A stretch of DNA of 64,000 bases. Origin: Hexactinellida sp. DTS-2022. Lineage: Eukaryota; Porifera; Hexactinellida. Positions 34,401-49,500 of this stretch are shown one piece after another. Below the pieces are notes generated by a model. The model had not been told where the DNA came from and made no database searches. It was given only the letters and a program-made list of their open reading frames with translations. Position 1 is the stretch's first letter. Each line of letters starts with the position of its first letter. The translations under genes and the position numbers were made by a program. The stretch is taken from assembly GCA_028753945.1 (NCBI GenBank), contig JAPNXP010000014.1, positions 186,001 through 250,000 on the forward strand, in the 5' to 3' direction.

Positions 34401-36607
34401 ACTCAACTTAATACAAACCCTATGTAAGTTGTTAAATTGGGACCATAGGGCTTGTTCATAATATTAAATTCATATTAAGCAGACAAAAAATTGTTCACAA
34501 TAAGCAGACCTGACTATATTTCCTCACATACATGTGAAAATTAAACTGTATAAAATTAGCAGAATAAATACAAATTCGACATAAATTATCCGTGTTAATA
34601 ATATAAAATATAAAATGATATATTAAAATGAGAAAATGTTGAATTTAATTGCTTACTGATAGCAGTAGAGAATTTTTAACCCAAATATTGTCTCATTTTA
34701 TTCAAAAAGGAAATGGCAAATATGACAGTATTATTATCAAATTAAATTATAGTATATAAAAAATGAATTTCAGCAAAATGACCCACAAATAGTGAAAAAA
34801 TTAAGTAATTATTTTTATATAAGACTAACGTGACCTACTTATACACCTGTGTTAACAAATGAAATACAGAAGTCAATAAATAATGCATTACCTAAGACAC
34901 GTTTGTAAATCCAACCAATCAAGAATTAGAGTTGTGACTATAATTAAAACTATTTTGATAATCAAATTGGAAATAATTTGCGCCCAAATTATACTTTATT
35001 TTAGGCAATGGTATTATAATTTGCGCGCCAAATAAAAAACAAGCTCAAATATTACGCGCCATAATATATCCTCATTGAAACCAACTAATAATTAAATTAA
35101 TAATATGTTCGTAAAGCAATAATTAACTTTTCAATTACTAATCTTTTAAGTCGCATTTAACATTGAATCGATAAAATATTACAATTTATATCGACAGGTG
35201 TTAATATATGGAAATATGTTTCCGTAGCCCTCAAATGATTTGATTGCGTTAATTAAAGAACTGATAAAAACTAACGTGTTCAAGTTTACTATAATTTCTT
35301 GTTGAAACTAAAAACCTGGTTTAGTGCTTAGTATATAGAAAGGTACGAACAGATTGGTTAGAATTCCATCACTATGTGTGATGTTCATAATTAAATTTAA
35401 GATTAGAGCCACAATTGTGTAGTGACCTAAACAAATTAGACGGGCTATCGTTTAACCAATCAGTTTACTTAGTTAACATGCGATATGACGATCATAAGTT
35501 AGTTCTATATGGAACTATAGTATACTCCGCTTAATAGAGCCACCGGTTAATATAATTCTCCGCTTAATCGGGTCAAAATTTCACAGGATTTATAGGACGG
35601 AATTACAGTTGGACTCGAAATATTTTCTGTTAATAGATTTCTCCGCTTAATCGGGTCAAAGTAACCTGGAACAAAACTGACCCTATAAATATTAAGCGGA
35701 GTCAACTGTGTTTATATTTTTGGTGGACAAGGTTAGTATTCAAATATAATTTGTGATAAATTGAGGGTCGACAAATATATATGTACGTGTTATTCTTGCC
35801 ATTCAACCAATGAGATTGCTGGCTACACACAACACAAAATATAGCAAAAGTCGTAGTCCTTAAAGACGGAGTCTTGAAGGTAGAATCCTCTGCAGTGATT
35901 GGTCAATCTAACCACTATGTTATCTGTCAAACTATTCATAATACCATTTGGTTGCATAATATGTAGTCATATTTTAAATAATCGAAACGGGTTTTTTCTA
36001 ACACCGGTTTTTCTAACTAAATTTATTCTAAATGTGGAAGAAATTCCAATTTTGTTGTATTATAAATCGGATTTTTCTTACCTTATTTCCATGCAATGAA
36101 TTGGTTAGAAAAACCCGATTTAACCTGTCTAATATGGAACTGAACTTACAAGGTTTCAGTTTGTTCAAAGGCTAGACAAGACGAATAATTTATTTCGGTA
36201 TTTGGCATATATGGATATACTGTATAATTTGATTATGTATCCATAAATACCAGGAAATATGATTTTTGATTGGTCAACAGACAGAGAGAAAGTGTAACGG
36301 TCATCTAATCCGGTTTTTCCTAAACAGACTAATTATATTGCATTCCTTTATCCTATTATATCACCAAGGAACAATGATATATTTGCATATTAAAACAGTA
36401 ATGTTATACTGTGCCAACTATACTATAGTATAGTGGCCCAGTTCTAATCTTAGTGCTTTGGTTATTATATTTCAAAAAGACTGTTGGCTTGAATTAAAAG
36501 TTTGCCTATTCAATAATTGGAACCTTATTTCCCAAATAACAACTGTAGATATACAAAATAATAAATGATACTTCTGCTCTAACACAACAAATACGAAATC
36601 TTAACAC

Positions 36608-36650
<43 letters not shown>

Positions 36651-36676
36651 CTACAACAACAACAACAACAACACTT
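31433..36676. other. AT-rich gene-poor region
   Basis: Over 5 kb with no convincing exon. Short frames lack splice sites, composition bias or homology that I can see. It holds the inverted repeat partner above, the palindromic P5 at 34202-34515, a degraded P1 (about 35517-35710), P7-like sequence (35985-36125) and a (CAA)n tract (36608-36672). Confidence 0.6.
34202..34515. mobile_element. P5 MITE, full palindrome
   Basis: Starts CAGTCAGGTCTGCTTATTGT and ends with its near-complement. The two halves meet near 34360 and mirror each other (GTTCATAATAGAGAGACTTC). About 314 bp, TA-flanked. Shorter P5 copies: 1240-1424, 18633-18798, 44426-44586, 47524-47684, 55997-56152. Confidence 0.8.
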
Positions 36677-39600
36677 CTATTTCAGATCATATAATTCAGT
36701 TAGGTCCGGATTAGAGAGAGATCTCTGCTTATATAGGCCCAGGGTCCGTTTCTGTCTGTTCGCTAACAGAAAGTCATCTGTCACCGAGAAGCTCTGTTCA
36801 TTGGTCTCCAGATTAGGCGCGGGACTGGTGAACATACCCGGCTCCAGGAACGCGGCTATAAATAGAACAAATAGGCGCCATAACTAACCTAAGCTATAAA
36901 TAGAACAAATAGGCGCCATAACTAACCTACACTGTAAATAGAACAAGTCTCTTAAAGGAGCGCTAATTACATTACACTCCATTATAAAAGCTACAAAATT
37001 TTTAAGCGTGCTAAATTGAAAATTTAGGCGCCAAACCAAGGATTTTAAGCGCCAAATTTAATATTTTAAGCGCGCCAAATTAAGGCAGTATGGATTTTAG
37101 GCGCCAAGAATTATAAGCGCAGAAAATAAAGCGACATGGATTTTAAGCGCCAAATTGAAAATTTAGGCGCCAAGTATTATAAACGCTCGAAATTAACGCG
37201 CCAAGAATTCCCCCTTGTTACCCTATAATTAGGCGCCAGGTGTCTAACAGGTAGCACATTACTCACTGTTGGTTCTCTCAATGCCGGATATAATATTACG
37301 CATGGGCATAAACCCGAAGGGATTAGACCCCCCGCCGGTCCCAAAAGTGTCCTGTCGAGAGGTGTTATGTCCCACAAAGGATTCCTGATGGTCCAGAGTC
37401 GGTTTGTGGGACTGTGTGGGGGAATGTGGGGGAGGCGAGGTGTGAGAATCGTAGAATGATTGCTGATTGGTTAGAGAGGGGCGTGAGTGAGTAGTTGGCA
37501 TGTATCTATAAATAGAAGTGACAAGTGGCACAAGTGGCAGAAATAACAACACAGGAAACTCTATACAGTAGAACCTGTTAATACGAACACTATTTCAGTC
37601 CCCTTCAAAGCCTTTTAATACAGTAGATGCCGGATATAAGAACACCAGTTATAAGAAGTTCTATTGGAAAACGGTTGCCATATACCCTATATACTTTATG
37701 TCGGTTATAAGGATATTATATGCAGTTCCCGACGATGTTCTTATAACCGGCATCCACTGTATAAATGACACCGGTTAATACGAATTCCGGATAAGGAGTA
37801 CACATTAAGACGGTCCCCTGGTGTTCCTACTAACGAGGTTCTACTGTACTTAACACCACATTCCAACCTGTCAAGTAGATCTCTAGGGTTCTCTGCAAAT
37901 GTCATAGTTTTAGCCGGTCTCATTGTGGGTGGAGAAGTGGCATAATTGTGTCGCATTTCCCTTTGTTTAAATTCCCACTCAACTTTCGACAGTTCATGAA
38001 ATTCCTTCCTCACCAACATCAACAGACTCCCTAGCCTATTCTTACCAGAACCAGCGATCCCATATCCCCAATATTCGTCCCTTTCTGTGTCATATATAAG
38101 CGTCATATTTCCGGATTGTATTAGAAAGTGACGTAATTCGTCATGCTGTTCGAACTTAAGTCTCAATCCGTGTAACATGTAATTATCTTTAACTTGACTG
38201 AAGTCAGAACGAACTTGCCGCTGGTACATGTTTGAATACACCAGTTTACGCACCTATATGGAACTATAAATAGGAACCAATATCCATGGCAAGCTCTGGA
38301 AATAATTAAGTATGTCATTTCCAGAAAATTTTGTTGGTAAACTGGTGTATTCAAACCAGTTTACCAAAAAATTTGTTCAAAGATTTTTACCAAAAAATGT
38401 TTGTAAAATTTGTTCCCTGAATTACAAACATTAGTTATCTTTCTACTGTAATAAGTGTGAAATTATGAATACAGTAGATGTCGGATATAAGCTTATAACC
38501 GGCATCCACTGTATAACTACTGTAATAAGTGTGAAAATATGAATATAAAGTTGTTTACCTCCTCAAGAGAAGTCTCTTTACTAATCATATCATCGAACTG
38601 TCCCCCATGGAATTTGGAGGCGTGATAAAAGTGTTCCACAGTGGGCCACTTTCTGCCATCTTGTGTCACAATTTGGTGTTCAGAACTCGGCAGGAAACAC
38701 GAATAAGTTCGGTCCAAAGCTGAGAACCGAAGTCTGTCGGAGTGTGTTGTGTCTGTGTAGGTGCTAGGAGCATTCCTGTGGTAAGGGAGGGTTGTCATGG
38801 AGCGGGTGATAGCGGGCTGGTCGAGAGGCGCGGATCTGTAGTAGGTGTTGCGAGGATCCTAGTTACGGAATGGGGACATGGAATGCTTGGCACAAATGTC
38901 ACAAATGGCAGAGGTGGTATAAGTGGCAAAAATGGCACAAATGTTACTAGGTAGCATAAATACGACAAATGGCACAAGTGGCAGAGATCTCACAAATGGA
39001 CAAATGTAACAAATGCCACTTATGCCACTTAACACTTAACAGCTACCTGGTTTAGAGTGACTCCTCTCTGCAGATCTATCTTCAGATCCTCCAGCATGGC
39101 TCCCAACCTATTCTGACCGGTCCCATCCCCCCCGTCTCCATAATACGGATCCTCTTCCGAGTGGAACACAAGTTTCCTTTTAGTTCCGATTAGCAGCTCG
39201 CATAGTTCCGGGTGTTGCTCGAATTTCGCGTGAATCGCTTGTGACATAACTCGGTCCCGCTTTTCGGGCCACCCCTTTTGCACCCCCTCCCGATGTTGGT
39301 ATGCCACATATGGCACCTCGTCTGGGGACACAATTGTCCGGATTTTATCCTCAAGACGAGTGCCCTCGAATTTCATTGCGTTGTAAAAGTGGGCAACTGA
39401 TGGCCATCGTTTGTGGTCAATAGTGATCGGGTGATGAGAGTATATTGATAGGGAGCTGTTTGTGTTTGTTTTGTCTGTTGTTATTATTGTTGTGTTTGGG
39501 TCTCGTTGGAGTTTTGTGAAGTATTGGGATTTCCGCGCGTCTTTTGTTGGGCTGTGGACTTGTTGGGGACCGATTGCTTGCAGGATAGGTCTAAACAACA

Positions 39601-39923
39601 ACAACAATAAGTAAACAAACTAGTAAACAAACATATATACAAACAACAAACCAACCAAGCAAACAAACAAACTTGAAAACGAATAAACAAACAAACATAC
39701 TGTATATACGTACATACATACAAAAAAACGAATAAACAAACAAACAAACAAACAAACAACCAACCAAACAAACAAACAAACAAACAACCAACCAACCAAT
39801 TAACCAAACAACAACAACAACAACACTACCTAACATCGGAATCTCTCTCTTGCAGTTCCTTCCTAATATCCATAAGGAAGTTACCCAGCATATTCTGTCC
39901 CTCCTCGCTAATGCCATCTCCCC

Positions 39924-39955
<32 letters not shown>

Positions 39956-40307
39956 CTACCTAACATCGGAATCTCTCTCTTGCAGTTCCTTCCTAATATC
40001 CATAAGGAAGTTACCCAGCATATTCTGTCCCTCCTCGCTAATGCCATCTCCCCAAACAACAACAACAACAACAACAACAACACTACCTGACATCGGAATC
40101 TCTCTCTTGCAGTTCCTTCCTAATATCCATAAGGAAGTTACCCAGCATATTCTGTCCCTCCTCACTAATGCCATCTCCCCAAACAACAACAACAACAACA
40201 ACAACAACACTACCTAACATCGGAATCTCTCTCTTGCAGTTCCTTCCTAATATCCATAAGGAAGTTACCCAGCATATTCTGTCCCTCCTCACTAATGCCA
40301 TCTCCCC

Positions 40308-40342
<35 letters not shown>

Positions 40343-40440
40343 CTACCTAACATCGGAATCTCTCTCCTGCAGCTCCTTCCTAATATCCATAAGGAAGTTC
40401 CCCAGCATATTCTGTCCCTCCTCGCTAATCCCATCTCCCC

Positions 40441-40505
<65 letters not shown>

Positions 40506-40603
40506 CTACCTAACATCAGAATCTCTCTCTTGCAGTTCCTTCCTAATATCCATAAGGAAGTTACCCAGCATATTCTGTCCCTCCTCGCTAATGCCATCTC
40601 CCC

Positions 40604-40635
<32 letters not shown>

Positions 40636-40733
40636 CTACCTAACATCGGAATCTCTCTCTTGCAGTTCCTTCCTAATATCCATAAGGAAGTTCCCCAGCA
40701 TATTCTGTCCCTCCTCACTAATGCCATCTCCCC

Positions 40734-40765
<32 letters not shown>

Positions 40766-40863
40766 CTACCTAACATCAGAATCTCTCTCTTGCAGTTCCT
40801 TCCTAATATCCATAAGGAAGTTACCCAGCATATTCTGTCCCTCCTCGCTAATCCCATCTCCCC

Positions 40864-40895
<32 letters not shown>

Positions 40896-40993
40896 CTACC
40901 TAACATCGGAATCTCTCTCTTGCAGTTCCTTCCTAATATCCATAAGGAAGTTCCCCAGCATATTCTGTCCCTCCTCGCTAATGCCATCTCCCC

Positions 40994-41025
<32 letters not shown>

Positions 41026-41123
41026 CTACCTAACATCGGAATCTCTCTCTTGCAGTTCCTTCCTAATATCCATAAGGAAGTTCCCCAGCATATTCTGTCC
41101 CTCCTCGCTAATGCCATCTCCCC

Positions 41124-41173
<50 letters not shown>

Positions 41174-41401
41174 CTACCTAACATCAGAATCTCTCTCTTG
41201 CAGTTCCTTCCTAATATCCATAAGGAAGTTACCCAGCATATTCTGTCCCTCCTCGCTAATGCCATCTCCCCAAACAACAACAACAACAACAACAACAACA
41301 AAACTACCTAACATCGGAATCTCTCTCTTGCAGTTCCTTCCTAATATCCATAAGGAAGTTCCCCAGCATATTCTGTCCCTCCTCGCTAATGCCATCTCCC
41401 C

Positions 41402-41448
<47 letters not shown>

Positions 41449-41676
41449 CTACCTAACATCAGAATCTCTCTCTTGCAGTTCCTTCCTAATATCCATAAGG
41501 AAGTTACCCAGCATATTCTGTCCCTCCTCGCTAATGCCATCTCCCCAAACAACAACAACAACAACAACAACAACAAAACTACCTAACATCGGAATCTCTC
41601 TCTTGCAGTTCCTTCCTAATATCCATAAGGAAGTTCCCCAGCATATTCTGTCCCTCCTCGCTAATGCCATCTCCCC

Positions 41677-41723
<47 letters not shown>

Positions 41724-41821
41724 CTACCTAACATCAGAATCTCTCTCTTGCAGTTCCTTCCTAATATCCATAAGGAAGTTCCCCAGCATATTCTGTCCCT
41801 CCTCGCTAATGCCATCTCCCC

Positions 41822-41868
<47 letters not shown>

Positions 41869-41966
41869 CTACCTAACATCAGAATCTCTCTCTTGCAGTT
41901 CCTTCCTAATATCCATAAGGAAGTTACCCAGCATATTCTGTCCCTCCTCGCTAATGCCATCTCCCC

Positions 41967-41998
<32 letters not shown>

Positions 41999-42096
41999 CT
42001 ACCTAACATCAGAATCTCTCTCTTGCAGTTCCTTCCTAATATCCATAAGGAAGTTACCCAGCATATTCTGTCCCTCCTCACTAATGCCATCTCCCC

Positions 42097-42128
<32 letters not shown>

Positions 42129-42226
42129 CTACCTAACATCAGAATCTCTCTCTTGCAGTTCCTTCCTAATATCCATAAGGAAGTTACCCAGCATATTCTG
42201 TCCCTCCTCACTAATGCCATCTCCCC

Positions 42227-42258
<32 letters not shown>

Positions 42259-42356
42259 CTACCTAACATCAGAATCTCTCTCTTGCAGTTCCTTCCTAAT
42301 ATCCATAAGGAAGTTACCCAGCATATTCTGTCCCTCCTCGCTAATGCCATCTCCCC

Positions 42357-42406
<50 letters not shown>

Positions 42407-42631
42407 CTACCTAACATCGGAATCTCTCTCTTGCAGTTCCTTCCTAATATCCATAAGGAAGTTACCCAGCATATTCTGTCCCTCCTCACTAATCCCATCT
42501 CCCCAAACAACAACAACAACAACAACAACAACACTACCTAACATCAGAATCTCTCTCTTGCAGCTCCTTCCTAATATCCATAAGGAAGTTCCCCAGCATA
42601 TTCTGTCCCTCCTCGCTAATGCCATCTCCCC

Positions 42632-42684
<53 letters not shown>

Positions 42685-42782
42685 CTACCTAACATCGGAA
42701 TCTCTCTCTTGCAGTTCCTTCCTAATATCCATAAGGAAGTTACCCAGCATATTCTGTCCCTCCTCGCTAATGCCATCTCCCC

Positions 42783-42829
<47 letters not shown>

Positions 42830-42927
42830 CTACCTAACATCAGAATCTCTCTCTTGCAGTTCCTTCCTAATATCCATAAGGAAGTTACCCAGCATATTCT
42901 GTCCCTCCTCGCTAATGCCATCTCCCC

Positions 42928-42959
<32 letters not shown>

Positions 42960-43057
42960 CTACCTAACATCGGAATCTCTCTCTTGCAGTTCCTTCCTAA
43001 TATCCATAAGGAAGTTACCCAGCATATTCTGTCCCTCCTCGCTAATGCCATCTCCCC

Positions 43058-43089
<32 letters not shown>

Positions 43090-43314
43090 CTACCTAACAT
43101 CGGAATCTCTCTCTTGCAGTTCCTTCCTAATATCCATAAGGAAGTTACCCAGCATATTCTGTCCCTCCTCGCTAATGCCATCTCCCCAAACAACAACAAC
43201 AACAACAACAACAACACTACCTAACATCGGAATCTCTCTCTTGCAGTTCCTTCCTAATATCCATAAGGAAGTTCCCCAGCATATTCTGTCCCTCCTCACT
43301 AATGCCATCTCCCC

Positions 43315-43346
<32 letters not shown>

Positions 43347-43444
43347 CTACCTAACATCGGAATCTCTCTCTTGCAGCTCCTTCCTAATATCCATAAGGAA
43401 GTTCCCCAGCATATTCTGTCCCTCCTCGCTAATGCCATCTCCCC

Positions 43445-43494
<50 letters not shown>

Positions 43495-43592
43495 CTACCT
43501 AACATCGGAATCTCTCTCTTGCAGTTCCTTCCTAATATCCATAAGGAAGTTACCCAGCATATTCTGTCCCTCCTCGCTAATGCCATCTCCCC

Positions 43593-43627
<35 letters not shown>

Positions 43628-43725
43628 CTACCTAACATCGGAATCTCTCTCTTGCAGCTCCTTCCTAATATCCATAAGGAAGTTACCCAGCATATTCTGT
43701 CCCTCCTCGCTAATGCCATCTCCCC

Positions 43726-43778
<53 letters not shown>

Positions 43779-46160
43779 CTACCTAACATCGGAATCTCTC
43801 TCTTGCAGTTCCTTCCTAATATCCATAAGGAAGTTACCCAGCATATTCTGTCCCTCCTCGCTAATGCCATCTCCCCAATATGTGTCGTTACAATGGTGCA
43901 CCAATCTACGGAGTCCGGTGGACAGCAGTAAGTGCTTAGCCTCTGGGTACTGAAGGAACTTAGCCTTTAGACCAGTCTTCATAACAGGATCCTATAGAGG
44001 GGATAATAATATGGGGGGGGGGGGGGGGGGGGGCAGGGTTGTATCAACTCATTTTGAGTTGGCAGAATCAACTCATTTTCTTGAATGAGTTGAATGAGTT
44101 GGTAGACAAAAAATGAGTTAATACAACCCTACTTCCGACCATGGCCAGACAACTTTCACTTTGTCGTAACATTAATGCGTAGGGAGATCCAAATTTGGCC
44201 GGATCACTTTTGAGAGCCGACAGACGCAGCTGTAAATGTATTATTAAACTGAAGATTTAAGATATACGTTAGTTACAATTAGTTTAATAAAAAATGAGTT
44301 GGCAGAATCAACTCATTTTCTTGAATGAGTTGAATGAGTTGGTAACAGCAAAATGAGTTGTTTTGCCAACTCAAAATGAGTTGATACAACCCTGGCCCGG
44401 CCCGGGGGGGGGATAATGTATAATACAGTCAGGTCTGCTTATTGTAAACAACTTTTCGTCTGCTTAATATGAAAACTTTTTATTATGGACAAGCCCTATG
44501 GTCCCAATTTAACAACTTACATAGGGTTTATAATAAGTAGAGTTCACTTATTATAAAGTCTCTTTATTATGAACACAATTTTTTGTCACAGGTGTTCACA
44601 TAAGTGGAACTATACTATACTATACAGAGAATAACACCTGTTACTGCTATACTATGTATACAGCAATAACTTCTGCTATTCTTTACATAAAACATCTGCT
44701 ATTCCTTCAGAACTACAGAGCACGAAAAGTATAAATAGAGACAAGCCTATAATAGTATCACCTTAACTTCCTTCCAATCTTTCCTAACAAAATCTTGGTT
44801 TTCTTGACTGTAAGCTAACTTCATTGCTTCATTCGCCGTTCCACATTCCTGTATCTTTCCTTCCAGCTTTGAACCAGTGAATCTCTGTCCCAAATAATAA
44901 TGCGAGACAGTAGGCCACTTAACACCATTTATTCGCACCTCGTGTGGGAAATAAGGCGAGAATTCAAAGAATGGATATTTATCGTCGTGAAAGTAAATCG
45001 ATCCTTTTGGTGGTTTATCGGGTAAAACAGAGTTAGGTGACAAATCTAGGAACTAAAAAATGTAGGTAAACAACAATAATATTACATTAGAACCTCGTTA
45101 ATACGAACACCAACAGACGGTTAAAATGTGTTCGCTTTATCCGGAGTTCGTATTAACCGGAGTAATACCCATTGAATAGCCATTGTAGGGACCTGATTTT
45201 GTGGAACTGTTTGTTCGTATTTCCGGAAATTAGTATTAACCGTGCCGTACTAACGAGGTTCTACTGTAGATATAAACAAACTGGTACTAACTTCAGAGTT
45301 AATATCAGTTTCAGTTCCAATAGGAGTAGGTTTCTTTCCTTGCAGCTCTACGCGTGTTCGCATTAACAGCTGTCCTAGCTTGTTAGCTCCCATACCGTCG
45401 CTACCTTTGCCCCAGTAGGAACCTGCAATTGAGTCCTGAAATACAATCCTTCTGTTTCCAGTTCGTAATAGGAGCTTCTTTAGGTCCTTGTGTTGAGAGA
45501 ATTTGGCGCGCAAACCTTCTAGCATTATCTCATCTTTGATCTAAAGATAAAAATAGAATAAATTTCAGAATATGAATATAACGAAACCAAAAAATGTCTG
45601 CCAAAGGTATTTGAACAAAAAATATTTGTATTCATGCAATCAAGCTTCAGGCAGCATAATAACATTTGTAGATGCTTAAAGTTTAGTATAATAAAATTGA
45701 AAATTTAGAATTTACATTTTTATGGAACAATCTAAAAATATAACACATTTAAAATCAAAGTAAAATACAGTAACTAAATTTTTTTTCATCAACAAGTTTT
45801 CATGCACAAAAATCATGAATTTTTTCGAATTTAATGTATAATTTAACCGAAAACAGTTGAAACATTAAATCTATAGTTCTATATGGAACTAACTTTATGC
45901 CAGTCATGCCTCACGAAATCTAGCACAGCTGAATTTCTCTCTAATTCCTTCGCCTGTTCTGTGTCATAAGTCTTCTGTATTTTGGTTGCTAGGGGCGTTC
46001 CCTGGAATTTCTGTGATTGCACATAATTCTCGACGCTTAGCCACAAAACAGATTTTATTAAGATTGGATAATTAGGATTTCCGTTAACCAACTCGTGATA
46101 GTGTCCTTCTGTGTCTTTTGTGTCTGTGAATACCAGCGGGTCTAAATCGGAACTAGCCAT
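36677..46160 (-). CDS. Four-domain NADAR protein
   Basis: Nine exons: 46160-45894, 45540-45292, 45052-44762, 43991-43783, 39590-39047, 38858-38559, 38253-37868, 37505-37267, 36855-36677. Phases match, 887 aa. NADAR (YbiA-like) domains are N-glycosidases acting on ADP-ribose-linked or riboflavin-pathway substrates; some reverse guanine ADP-ribosylation. Four copies are seen: exons 1-2, exons 3-4, exon 5, exons 6-7. Each has a W-[LP]-[ST]-V-x-[NH]-[YF]-Y/V element and a C-terminal [WY]-G-x-G...N-x-L-G motif. The candidate catalytic Glu of the first element is kept in domains 1 (WLSVENY) and 4 (WPTVEHFY) but is Ser in 2 (WPTVSHYY) and Ala in 3 (WPSVAHFY). The tail (exons 8-9) is Ser/Pro/Asn-rich. 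Intron 4 holds the 29-copy exon array. Homology is strong; the substrate is unknown. Confidence 0.88.
37565..37845. mobile_element. P2 MITE interrupted by a P3 MITE
   Basis: P2 pieces 37565-37618 (CAGTAGAACCTGTTAATACG) and about 37762-37845 (GAGGTTCTACTG). P3 lies at 37621-37759 (CAGTAGATGCCGGATATAAG ... GGCATCCACTG) with TA on each side. Located in NADAR intron 7. Confidence 0.75.
38472..38511. mobile_element. 40-bp minimal P3 element
   Basis: CAGTAGATGTCGGATATAAG joined directly to CTTATAACCGGCATCCACTG, TA flanks. It is practically two terminal repeats with no interior. Confidence 0.6.
39597..39826. repeat. AAAC/CAA simple repeat at the 3' end of NADAR intron 4
   Basis: Simple repeats between the NADAR exon 5 acceptor and the exon-edge array. 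Confidence 0.85.
39827..43880 (-). repeat. 30-copy array of the NADAR exon 4 3' edge with (TTG)n spacers
   Basis: Unit on the minus strand: (TTG)n, then about 97 nt encoding WGDGISEEGQNMLGNFLMDI and RKELQERDSDV, then the donor AG|GTAGTG. Copies end at 39826, 39956, 40083, 40210, 40343, 40506 and so on to 43628; the most upstream copy (43783-43880) is the 3' part of true exon 4. Unit spacing is 127-163 bp, set by the length of the TTG tract (commonly 130, 145 or 148). The coding part varies at only seven positions, all synonymous. Each unit keeps a donor but no clear acceptor with a good pyrimidine tract directly before it. Confidence 0.95.
44034..44394. mobile_element. hAT-like non-autonomous element
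   Basis: Perfect inverted ends: CAGGGTTGTATCAACTCATT left, AATGAGTTGATACAACCCTG right. It is bordered by long G runs (44013-44033 and 44402-44412), so no target duplication can be read. It sits in NADAR intron 3. Internal ATGAGTTG repeats add further hairpins. Confidence 0.6.
44426..44586. mobile_element. P5 MITE, right end damaged
   Basis: CAGTCAGGTCTGCTTATTGT at the left. It follows P5 to GAACACAATTTTTTGTC and then stops. Confidence 0.6.
45085..45265. mobile_element. P2 MITE in NADAR intron 2
   Basis: TTAGAACCTCGTTAATACGA ... AACGAGGTTCTACTG. Contains the GTTCGTATTAACCGGAG block. Confidence 0.65.
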
Positions 46161-46240
46161 TTATAGTTCCAATTCGAATTGCTAGATTGAGTATAAAGCT
46201 TTGCATACATTAACCGTAACCATAGAGATACAGAGTAGAA

Positions 46241-46365
46241 CAGTAAAACCTTCAAAATATGAACACTTTTTCTCGGTCCCAAATTCCCCATTGTTTTAGA
46301 GACACGTTATGATAAATCATGAAAAGTGAACGTTTTGGCTGGTTCACTTTCTGAAGGTTTTACTG
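46241..46365. mobile_element. P6 MITE
   Basis: CAGTAAAACCTTCAAAATAT ... CTGAAGGTTTTACTG, located between the NADAR and SLC27A genes, upstream of the NADAR start. Confidence 0.65.
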
Positions 46366-46584
46366 TACTAATGTAGTAGCATTTGTGTCCTTGTAATGTG
46401 GCACAAGTGGCATAAGTGGCACAAAATTCCGATTGTAAAAATATTTTTTTTGGTCCGGTATAATAAATATAGATATGGATATACTGATGATCTATATATC
46501 AGCTAAAAATAAGAATCTTCAAACAACAACAACAACATAAATCCTGTATAATACATGCTAGAACAGAGGTGTTAAAACTACACT

Positions 46585-49500
46585 TCACAAACGTATAGTT
46601 CCAGATTGAATACCATCCCGTGCCACTTTATCCAGCTCGACATAAACACCTCTCTTCGTGTCGAGATAAAACAGCTGATCCGACACCTTATCAATATCAA
46701 ATCCCTCCTCCTTGAGTTTAATCTTCTGCAGCTTAAATGTACCTGTTATACAGTAGTGGATATAATGTTCTAGAAAGTTCTTATTCTTATATCTACTGTA
46801 CAGTGCATGACAAAATGAAATTTGGAAAAAAATGGAAAAAATTTGAATTTGAAAATTTTATATAATGTTCTTGTAACCGGCATAAATTCTCGTTAATAGG
46901 CAAGTGACTCCGGTTAATACGAATTCCGGATAATATGAACATGCTAAGACGGTCCCCTGGTGTTCCTATTAACAGAGTCTAATGTATATTGTTACACACA
47001 TTGTGTCCTCTTTATATACATATTTTAACACCTCTAAATCTTGTACTCTTTATCCGTTTTTATATTAACAAGAGTCTACTGTATGTTGCTAAATACATAG
47101 TGTCATCTTTATATACATATTTTAACACCTATAAATATACTTGTATACTAACTTACCTGTAATATCAACCGAAGGCAGCAGGCGTATAAACAGAGGTCTG
47201 GCATAAATGGGCAGAGAGGGACTAATCTCCTTATAGAGCGTAGAGGGGTCCAGATAGGGGTCCGCAATCGCAGCCATGCCCGCCTTCCCGTCTGTGCCTG
47301 TAGAGACAGATGTAAACAACAACAACAACAACAACAACACAATAATAACACAATAATATATCACAATAACACAACCTTTAAAAGGTTGATAATAAACTGA
47401 TTGAAAATATAACAAATTTGGAATTTGTTAAATAATTAGAATAATAGTTAGTAGGAAAAACCGATTAGTTAGAAAACCGGTGTGGAAAAAACCGGTTTCA
47501 ACTGTACTTGTTATTACAAAATACAGTTAGGTTCTTTTATTATGAACATTCAAGGGACCATAATTGTGTTCATAATAGAGAGACTTTATAATAAGCGAAC
47601 TCAACTTAATACAAACCCTATGTAAGTTGTTAAATTGGGACCATAGGGCTTGTTCATATTAAGTATATTAAGCAGACTTGACTGTATTTGATAATAAGTT
47701 TGTTGTTGTTTACCTGGCACCTCTACACCATACACAACCACATCTTTAAGCTTCAGAACTGAAGTGATTATACTCTCCACTTCTGCAGTGCTCACATTCT
47801 CACCTAAGTTGAGTAATAGTAAGAAAAAGCTAAAATTACAGCTGTGCCGACAGCATGTCCTTATAAGTTATAGTTAGAAAAAACCTAAGTTGAATAATAC
47901 GTATGATGTATTATACGTAATATTACGTAATGCCTATTATATAGTAAGAAAAATCTAAAATTACAGCTGTGCCGACAGCATATTCTAGTTGAGGCACTAT
48001 TTGTCATTAAACCACCAAATATTTTTTTATTCCATAACAACGACAGATTAGATTAAGTGAATATATTAAGATGATATTACAAAAAATCTAAAATTACAGC
48101 TGTGCCGACAGCATATTCTTCTGGAGGCACTACCAAATATTGTGCCTCCAAATGAATATTCAGTCGGCACAGCTGTAATTTTAGATTTTTTCAATATGAC
48201 ATTAATACGATTGATTAATATGATGTCGTTAATACAGTAGATGCTGGATATAAGAACACCGGTTATAAGAACATACCGGTTTTAATAATACCGCATATAA
48301 GAACATTCTACTGGAAAACGGTTGCCATATACCCTGTATAATCTATGCCGGTTATAAGAACACTATATGCAGTTCCCGACGATGTTCTTATAACCGGCAT
48401 CACTGTACAAATGAATGGTTTACCCCTCTTATACGCATGTTTACTGTTGTTGTTTACCCCTGTTATACGTATAAAGATATTCTCACCTTTCCACCGAAAC
48501 GTGTCGCCGCCCCTATCACAGAACCGGAAGTACCCATATTCGTCCTGCACCAATATGTCGCCTGTCCGGAAATATCTGTCCCCTATCCTCTCCACGTCTC
48601 GTATTATGCGACCGCTCGTCGCCTCTGTGCTCAGGTACCCGTCGAAACGCCGGTCTAGTCAAGGTACGTATAGGCATAGATAATAGTAGAACTTCGTTTG
48701 TAGGAACATTCTAAACCTCGTTAGTAGTTAATACAAAATTCCGGTTAATGCGAAACACAATACAGTGGGGGAAATAACAGTCATTTGGAACTGAAATAAG
48801 ACGTTTCTGAAAAATATAGTACCAGCGTATTATAAATACGCTTAAATATGCAGGCATTTGGAAATATGCTCGTAATCCTGGTCTGATCCAATTTCATACA
48901 CCTAAGTCACAAATTAATGCTCCTAAAATTCAAATTTCCCAAAATTATACTCCAAAAGGAGCGACATAATTCCTTGTAGATATACAATCGACTCCGCTTA
49001 ATAGAGTCACCTCGGGACCAGGTTATTTTGACCCGATTAAGCGGAGAAATATAGAATTATAAGATTCTAAAATACAAGAATACAAAACTAACCAATTTTA
49101 TTCGTAATGCGACCAATCAGCTCTCCGGGTTCGCCTGGCTTACACATAACACAAGTCCTATCCACATTCCTTTGCAGCTCTCCCGTAACCAGGTCTATCT
49201 TAACTAGAGAGACGGTTAAAGCTATTTTCTTCAGAAACGGAATATCCCGAAACGAAATGGGAGAATATCCCACACATCCCGGCATATTCATGTTATTCAG
49301 AATATTCGCATTTCCCTCCGTCGCTCCATAGAACTCTCCTATACTTCCTATCTGTGGAAACAGTAAACAATAACACAAACAATATGTTGTTGTTGTTTAC
49401 TATACTTTCTATCTGTGGGAACAGTAAACAATAACACAAACAATATGTTGTTGTTGTTGAAATAAATTCTGTACAGTGAACTCCCGTTATAACCAAGTCA

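Follow-up and report, generated by a model that had tools for sequence, protein, structure and literature searches.

A minisatellite of 30 exon-end copies with splice donors at exon 4 of a predicted NADAR gene in a hexactinellid sponge

In this study, a stretch of 64,000 nucleotides (nt) from the sponge Hexactinellida sp. DTS-2022 (assembly GCA_028753945.1, contig JAPNXP010000014.1, positions 186,001 to 250,000 of the forward strand; hereafter the window) was analysed for a tandem array within a predicted gene of the NADAR family. Tandem Repeats Finder (TRF) and direct parsing showed that the array consists of 30 copies, arranged head to tail, of the final 95 nt of exon 4 of this gene, each followed by a splice donor and a (TTG)n tract. 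The copies fill positions 39830-43877 on the minus strand, which is the coding strand. An initial annotation had reported 30 such copies on the coding strand with 29 extra, practically identical donors, and both observations were borne out. It had also placed the array correctly, but with ends at 39827 and 43880, which do not hold for the exon copies, and had taken the repeated edge to be about 97 nt long instead of 95 nt.

The host gene was reconstructed as a splice chain on the basis of phase and homology. Nine exons, comprising 887 codons and one stop, were in phase at all eight junctions, and 4 of 4 segments matched the Pfam NADAR profile (PF08719) with 79-99 bits against a cut-off of 35.1 (E values from 7e-22 to 4e-28). 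The closest homologue was LOD99_3823 of the glass sponge Oopsacas minuta (883 aa), with 80% identity over 98% of a 766-aa draft query. A second homologue (927 aa, 56%) was found on a contig of 3068 bases, and the remaining 17 of the 19 protein-search matches were distant. In both close homologues the exon-4 edge is present once and is followed immediately by domain 3 at the junction predicted here, which reads DSDVR/PILQ in the host gene and the O. minuta homologue and DSDVR/SII in the 927-aa homologue (slashes mark splice junctions throughout). With eight junctions in phase and two homologues joining exons 4 and 5 at this point, the identity of the NADAR gene, the end of exon 4 at that donor and the position of the copies inside intron 4 were all upheld; the acceptor annotated near 39591 (39592-39591) and an intron 4 of about 4.2 kb were likewise correct, the measured length being 4192 nt. 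The features of the locus are as follows, with open reading frame abbreviated as ORF.

36677..46160, minus strand: host gene, nine exons, 887 aa, four NADAR domains (splice chain, Pfam, homology).
44762..46160, minus strand: exons 1-3 (46160-45894, 45540-45292, 45052-44762), NADAR domain 1 and the first half of domain 2 (splice chain).
43783..43991, minus strand: exon 4, 209 nt, ending in phase 2, second half of NADAR domain 2 (acceptor tatag before 43991, donor TAG/gtagtg).
43783..43877, minus strand: unit 1 of the array, the last 95 nt of exon 4 (WGDGISEEGQNMLGNFLMDIRKELQERDSDVR), coding copy (parsing).
43779..43781, minus strand: in-frame TAG overlapping donor 1, AG/GTAG (30 of 30 tails begin with GTAG; the ORF ends at 43779).
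39591..43782, minus strand: intron 4, 4192 nt, from donor 1 to the exon 5 acceptor (splice chain).
39830..43726, minus strand: units 2-30, 29 additional exon-edge copies with their donors and (TTG)n tracts (TRF, parsing, assembly search).
39591..39829, minus strand: presumed ancestral intron 4, 239 nt, counted from donor 30 (coordinates).
39804..39807, minus strand: TTGG microhomology in intron 4, presumed joint of the founding duplication, with the partner TTGG in exon 4 at 43875-43878 (29 of 29 identical junctions).
39047..39590, minus strand: exon 5, 544 nt, starting in phase 2, NADAR domain 3 (ORF, Pfam, splice chain).
36677..38858, minus strand: exons 6-9 (38858-38559, 38253-37868, 37505-37267, 36855-36677), NADAR domain 4 and the C-terminal tail (splice chain).

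By its profile matches, the host protein is placed in the NADAR family, other members of which are known to have guanine ADP-ribosyl hydrolase activity; a passage of PMC11833690 describes NADAR enzymes of bacteria and phage T4 that strip ADP-ribose from guanosine bases in RNA. A separate-gene arrangement, with the array as a 3′ untranslated region and domain 3 as a gene of its own, was rejected as the main reading. The exon 5 ORF has no ATG upstream of the core of NADAR domain 3, the TTG/TTTG-rich stretch from the last donor to exon 5 measures only 239 nt, and both homologues span the junction. Termination at the TAG as an isoform is possible. Known RNA families were searched for in 35000-47000, and none reached the gathering threshold.

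Direct parsing of the array gave an exon part of 95 nt in all 30 copies, with 0 indels. The copies end in TTAG (29/30) or TCAG (1/30) and are followed by GTAGTG (28/30) or GTAGTT (2/30). The (TTG)n tract has n = 8-20 in units 1-29 and n = 5 in unit 30. Units 1-29 measure 127-163 nt, always 1 modulo 3, and their length varies in the tails only, never in the exon part. In a search of the 112.4-Mb assembly (18 contigs) with the array unit, all 30 DNA matches reported sat at this locus; they were 96-100% identical to the query unit, so chance is no issue. The same array at other loci was not among the matches reported, match counts for repeats being lower bounds in these searches. The true copy number may be other than 30: the TTG differences and the mosaic variants argue against one copy stamped out by the assembler, but they do not fix the number at 30. 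Another TTG run (AAGTGTTGTTG...) starts directly after the stop codon of the NADAR gene (window 36603-36683) and resembles the tails of the exon-4 units.

Comparison of the 30 copies revealed variation at 7 of the 95 exon positions. All seven are third codon positions and all the differences are synonymous, with one peptide encoded in 30 of 30 copies. For mutations falling in non-translated copies, the expected synonymous share was 19-34%, and the probability of seven synonymous sites out of seven ranged from P = 8e-6 to 5e-4 over 12 mutation models, CpG excess included. The only two CpGs of the exon segment are two of the seven variable sites. On average, copies differ from one another by 1.87 sites, which corresponds to about 9% per synonymous site. 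Among the control arrays, one of 48 nt in the window (14 copies) had 16 variable sites, distributed 5/5/6 by phase, and two arrays of 141-142 nt at other NADAR loci (L029 and L025, with 6 and 5 copies) had 50 and 60 sites in an ungapped comparison, distributed 18/17/15 and 20/24/16, respectively. Four more small control arrays, with 5, 2, 2 and 1 variable sites, were little informative. The synonymous-only differences suggest that the copies are not ordinary junk DNA. As the copies differ in no other way, their variants probably arose while the sequence was read as protein, and the copies look as if coding alleles had been their source or as if they were under coding constraint. Such a pattern would mean either that the array is young relative to the allele diversity of the species or that the supposedly intronic copies are translated.

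An in-frame TAG lies within the donor (AG/GTAG) and follows each of the 30 copies; neither this codon nor the exclusively synonymous variation had been mentioned in the initial annotation. Splicing at donor 1 removes the TAG and would yield the full-length product of 887 aa with four NADAR domains. If one of donors 2-30 is used instead, the unit 1 TAG stays in the transcript, and the predicted product is the same for every one of these donors, a protein of 339 residues with two NADAR domains. Because only donor 1 escapes the TAG, donor choice would be readable as full-length versus truncated product. The spliceosome would choose among 30 nearly equal donors, about 130-150 nt apart, for one acceptor, and the locus may be regarded as a natural experiment on that choice. 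Messenger RNA (mRNA) from the later donors would probably be subject to nonsense-mediated decay. The array would thus work as a graded brake or an isoform switch, most likely as a tolerated by-product and not as an adaptation. The initial annotation had suggested that it could serve as a bank of decoy splice sites, alter the isoform ratio or slow down splicing. Exon definition would favour donor 1, which closes a 209-nt exon, and intron definition would favour donor 30, which opens a 239-nt intron. Recursive splicing at TTAG/GTAG, in which the unit would be a zero-length exon, is mentioned as a remark only, as no polypyrimidine tract precedes that AG.

The junctions of the array were then compared with their flanks. 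Before unit 1, exon 4 reads ATATTGGGGAG, and after unit 30 the intron reads (TTG)5TTTGGTTAA; the internal unit junctions read TTTGGGGAG in 29 of 29 cases, with a 4-nt microhomology to both parents. The common TTGG suggests one founding intron-exon joint, all later events being amplification. Judging from this joint, a tandem duplication would have fused the TTGG of intron 4 to the TTGG of exon 4, thereby copying the 95-nt exon end together with its donor and the (TTG)n tract. The exon copies of units 17-18 are found again in units 19-20 (tails of 35/50 and 35/53 nt, respectively), and all four combinations of variants were observed in 9 of the 21 pairs of variable sites, which together indicate that units exchanged sequence. 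Block structure and mosaics point to unequal exchange as the process that would have raised the unit to 30 copies, with intron 4 growing from 239 to 4192 nt. The seven other introns of the gene are 188-770 nt long; intron 4 is similar when counted from donor 30 (239 nt), as opposed to 4192 nt from donor 1. For O. minuta, average intron lengths of 341 bp (a passage of PMC10280926) and, on one scaffold, 194 bp (a passage of PMC10282587) are given. The array probably originated by one duplication at the 4-nt microhomology, followed by unequal exchange.

Taken as a whole, an exon-end minisatellite with competing donors, the copies of which were fed from coding alleles, is the best explanation, and we give it about an even chance of being right. 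In its last step, the young array would likeliest have received its variants through exchange with numerous exon 4 coding alleles; such feeding is loosely preferred over translation of the copies. Several points weigh against this explanation. The sample of seven sites is small and the test was picked after the data had been seen. In the ungapped comparison of the L029 and L025 arrays, small indels may have added sites and smeared the phases. Feeding from alleles needs a synonymous diversity of about 9%, which is high. The proposed splicing steps are predictions from the sequence, and with a human donor matrix the exon 4 donor scored as the weakest of the eight in the gene (-0.76 vs 0.32 to 2.71) and below another GT inside the unit (TGG/GTAACT, 1.34 vs -0.76). 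In a compact genome, intron-definition splicing could favour donor 30, with truncation as the main product. When the 339-aa product was searched against about 5.8 billion proteins, the 70 matches listed included no near-identical or recognisable truncated sponge protein, the best being P0020 (269 aa, 41%); this result neither supports nor excludes a short isoform.

Both the window and the surroundings of other NADAR loci are rich in tandem arrays, and with only seven variable sites the copies might be neutral intronic junk, that is, a young minisatellite skipped by ordinary splicing at donor 1, its synonymous pattern being coincidental. The P values for seven out of seven and the larger control arrays without phase bias speak against this, and we consider it unlikely. 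Translated copies would account directly for the synonymous-only variation, each unit holding an in-frame cassette exon of which any number could be added without a frameshift. Two candidate acceptors fit the phase-2 donor. ATTAG/G would give a 33-nt exon of 11 codons (KELQERDSDVR, the R codon being split over the junction), preceded by a branch-site-like GGTAAC and by CTTCCTT, with introns of 94-130 nt; ATTAG/C would give a 78-nt exon of 26 codons that covers six of the seven variable sites. However, the 33-nt cassette covers only four of the seven, and GGTAAC is present in 20 of the 30 copies, the other 10 having GGGAAC. Apart from the A of GTAG, the (TTG)n tails are free of A in 29 of 29 units, which leaves the 78-nt cassette without a near branch site. 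In addition, sites upstream of each cassette acceptor are likewise synonymous, about one AG in three would match the phase by chance, and the exon-4 segment is single in the two homologous proteins, so that cassette exons appear quite improbable. It is very doubtful that the 30 copies form a live coding bank kept readable by selection, in which cassettes of 11 or 26 residues, or some other translation, would vary the repeat number between NADAR domains 2 and 3 by splicing and by allele.

Exchange between units, which is visible in the array, might also have acted through unit 1, if rapid exchange brought amino-acid changes into the coding position, where they would be removed. In single-lineage simulations of such policing, 169 of 300 runs ended with at least seven variable sites and 0 of these 169 were all-synonymous. 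Population simulations with exchange and selection (200 chromosomes, 8 runs per setting and 6 non-independent samples each, with very large populations outside the range) gave at least seven variable sites in 138 of 144 samples, 0 of them all-synonymous. Without exchange (48/48) and without selection (48/48), every sample had at least seven variable sites and none was all-synonymous. An earlier population simulation with one run per setting, replaced as too noisy, had 0 of 74 samples with at least five synonymous variants that lacked amino-acid changes. Policing by unit 1 is accordingly held to be very improbable. The copy number is that of the assembly, and the array could be an assembly artefact or its copy number collapsed or inflated, but the TTG counts vary from 5 to 20, the variants of the exon part form mosaics, and errors of sequencing or assembly would have changed amino acids as well. 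We regard such an artefact as extremely unlikely.

The initial annotation knew of no description of such an array, a view that was not supported in that form. According to a passage of PMC4526556, the minisatellite of human IFI6 (6-16) supplies several splice donors, two downstream repeat units serving as donors to give three mRNA species, and tandem repeats at exon-intron boundaries have been reported to make new introns. As in IFI6, the tandem repeat of the sponge overlaps the 3′ end of an exon and has a GT donor in the same context in each unit (30/30 AG/GTAG). The IFI6 repeat unit is about 12 nt long. The sponge array differs in that each of its 30 units carries 95 nt from a conserved domain and an in-frame stop at the donor, and in that its variation is synonymous only. 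A passage of PMC4974935 describes tandem duplication of an AG/GT segment in fission yeast, with introns spanning several duplicates, and duplication of an existing intron-exon structure in the potato RdRp gene. The duplicated sponge segment also contains AG/GT in 30 of 30 copies (TTAG in 29, TCAG in 1), but the outcome there is a new intron, whereas here an exon-donor edge has been copied 30 times into the following intron. Internal tandem repeats at exon-intron boundaries of human segmental duplications, on average four units of 30 bp, alter gene structure (a passage of PMC2812944); the sponge unit is different in comprising 95 nt plus a tail, repeated 30 times. Tandem copies of coding sequence within one gene are also a feature of Dscam-type exon arrays. 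These consist of complete exon copies, each with its own acceptor and donor, which encode different peptides and are spliced in a mutually exclusive manner. In the sponge gene, by contrast, the first 114 nt of exon 4 and its acceptor are outside the repeat, only AGs within the unit are left as possible acceptors, and one peptide is encoded in all 30 copies. By analogy, the array appears to work like the IFI6 donor minisatellite and to be related to duplication-driven intron gain, and not to be a Dscam-like exon array. No report of exactly this arrangement was found in literature searches; as far as the searches show, what is new is how much coding sequence a unit contains, how many copies there are, the stop codon within each donor and the coding signature of the presumed intronic copies.

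Elsewhere in the assembly, 16 of 32 NADAR matches lie within one 74-kb stretch (G000 C8:619074-692877; L008, L011, L014-L019, L021-L023, L025-L027 and L029), apparently an expanded gene family, and each of four matches on C5 (4558948-4568600) falls within one open frame, 765-934 aa long. The scan for arrays near other NADAR matches covered 25 of 38 loci (81 kb with overlaps), 13 from the array locus being left out. A tandem repeat of 141-142 nt, with about 3 to 6.7 copies, is common to three places on C8 (L022:732-1149, L025:1943-2725 and L029:317-1271). It contains short TTG/AAC runs and has stops in all six frames of the unit; the array at L022, with 2 copies, was left unscored as a control, and L018:1-276 overlaps L029 and represents the same 141-nt array.

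An element dispersed through the window, with ACAGTAGAACCTCG at its end, resembles a small inverted-repeat transposon. Ten exact copies of these 14 bases were found over both strands between 11031 and 60469 of the window, for example at 37834 and 45254, and two of the ten lie in the NADAR gene, 20-25 nt downstream of the donors of exons 2 and 7. In intron 3 (window 44013-44390), two inverted copies of AACTCATTTTGAGTTG lie next to a long poly-G run and possibly represent a further small mobile element.

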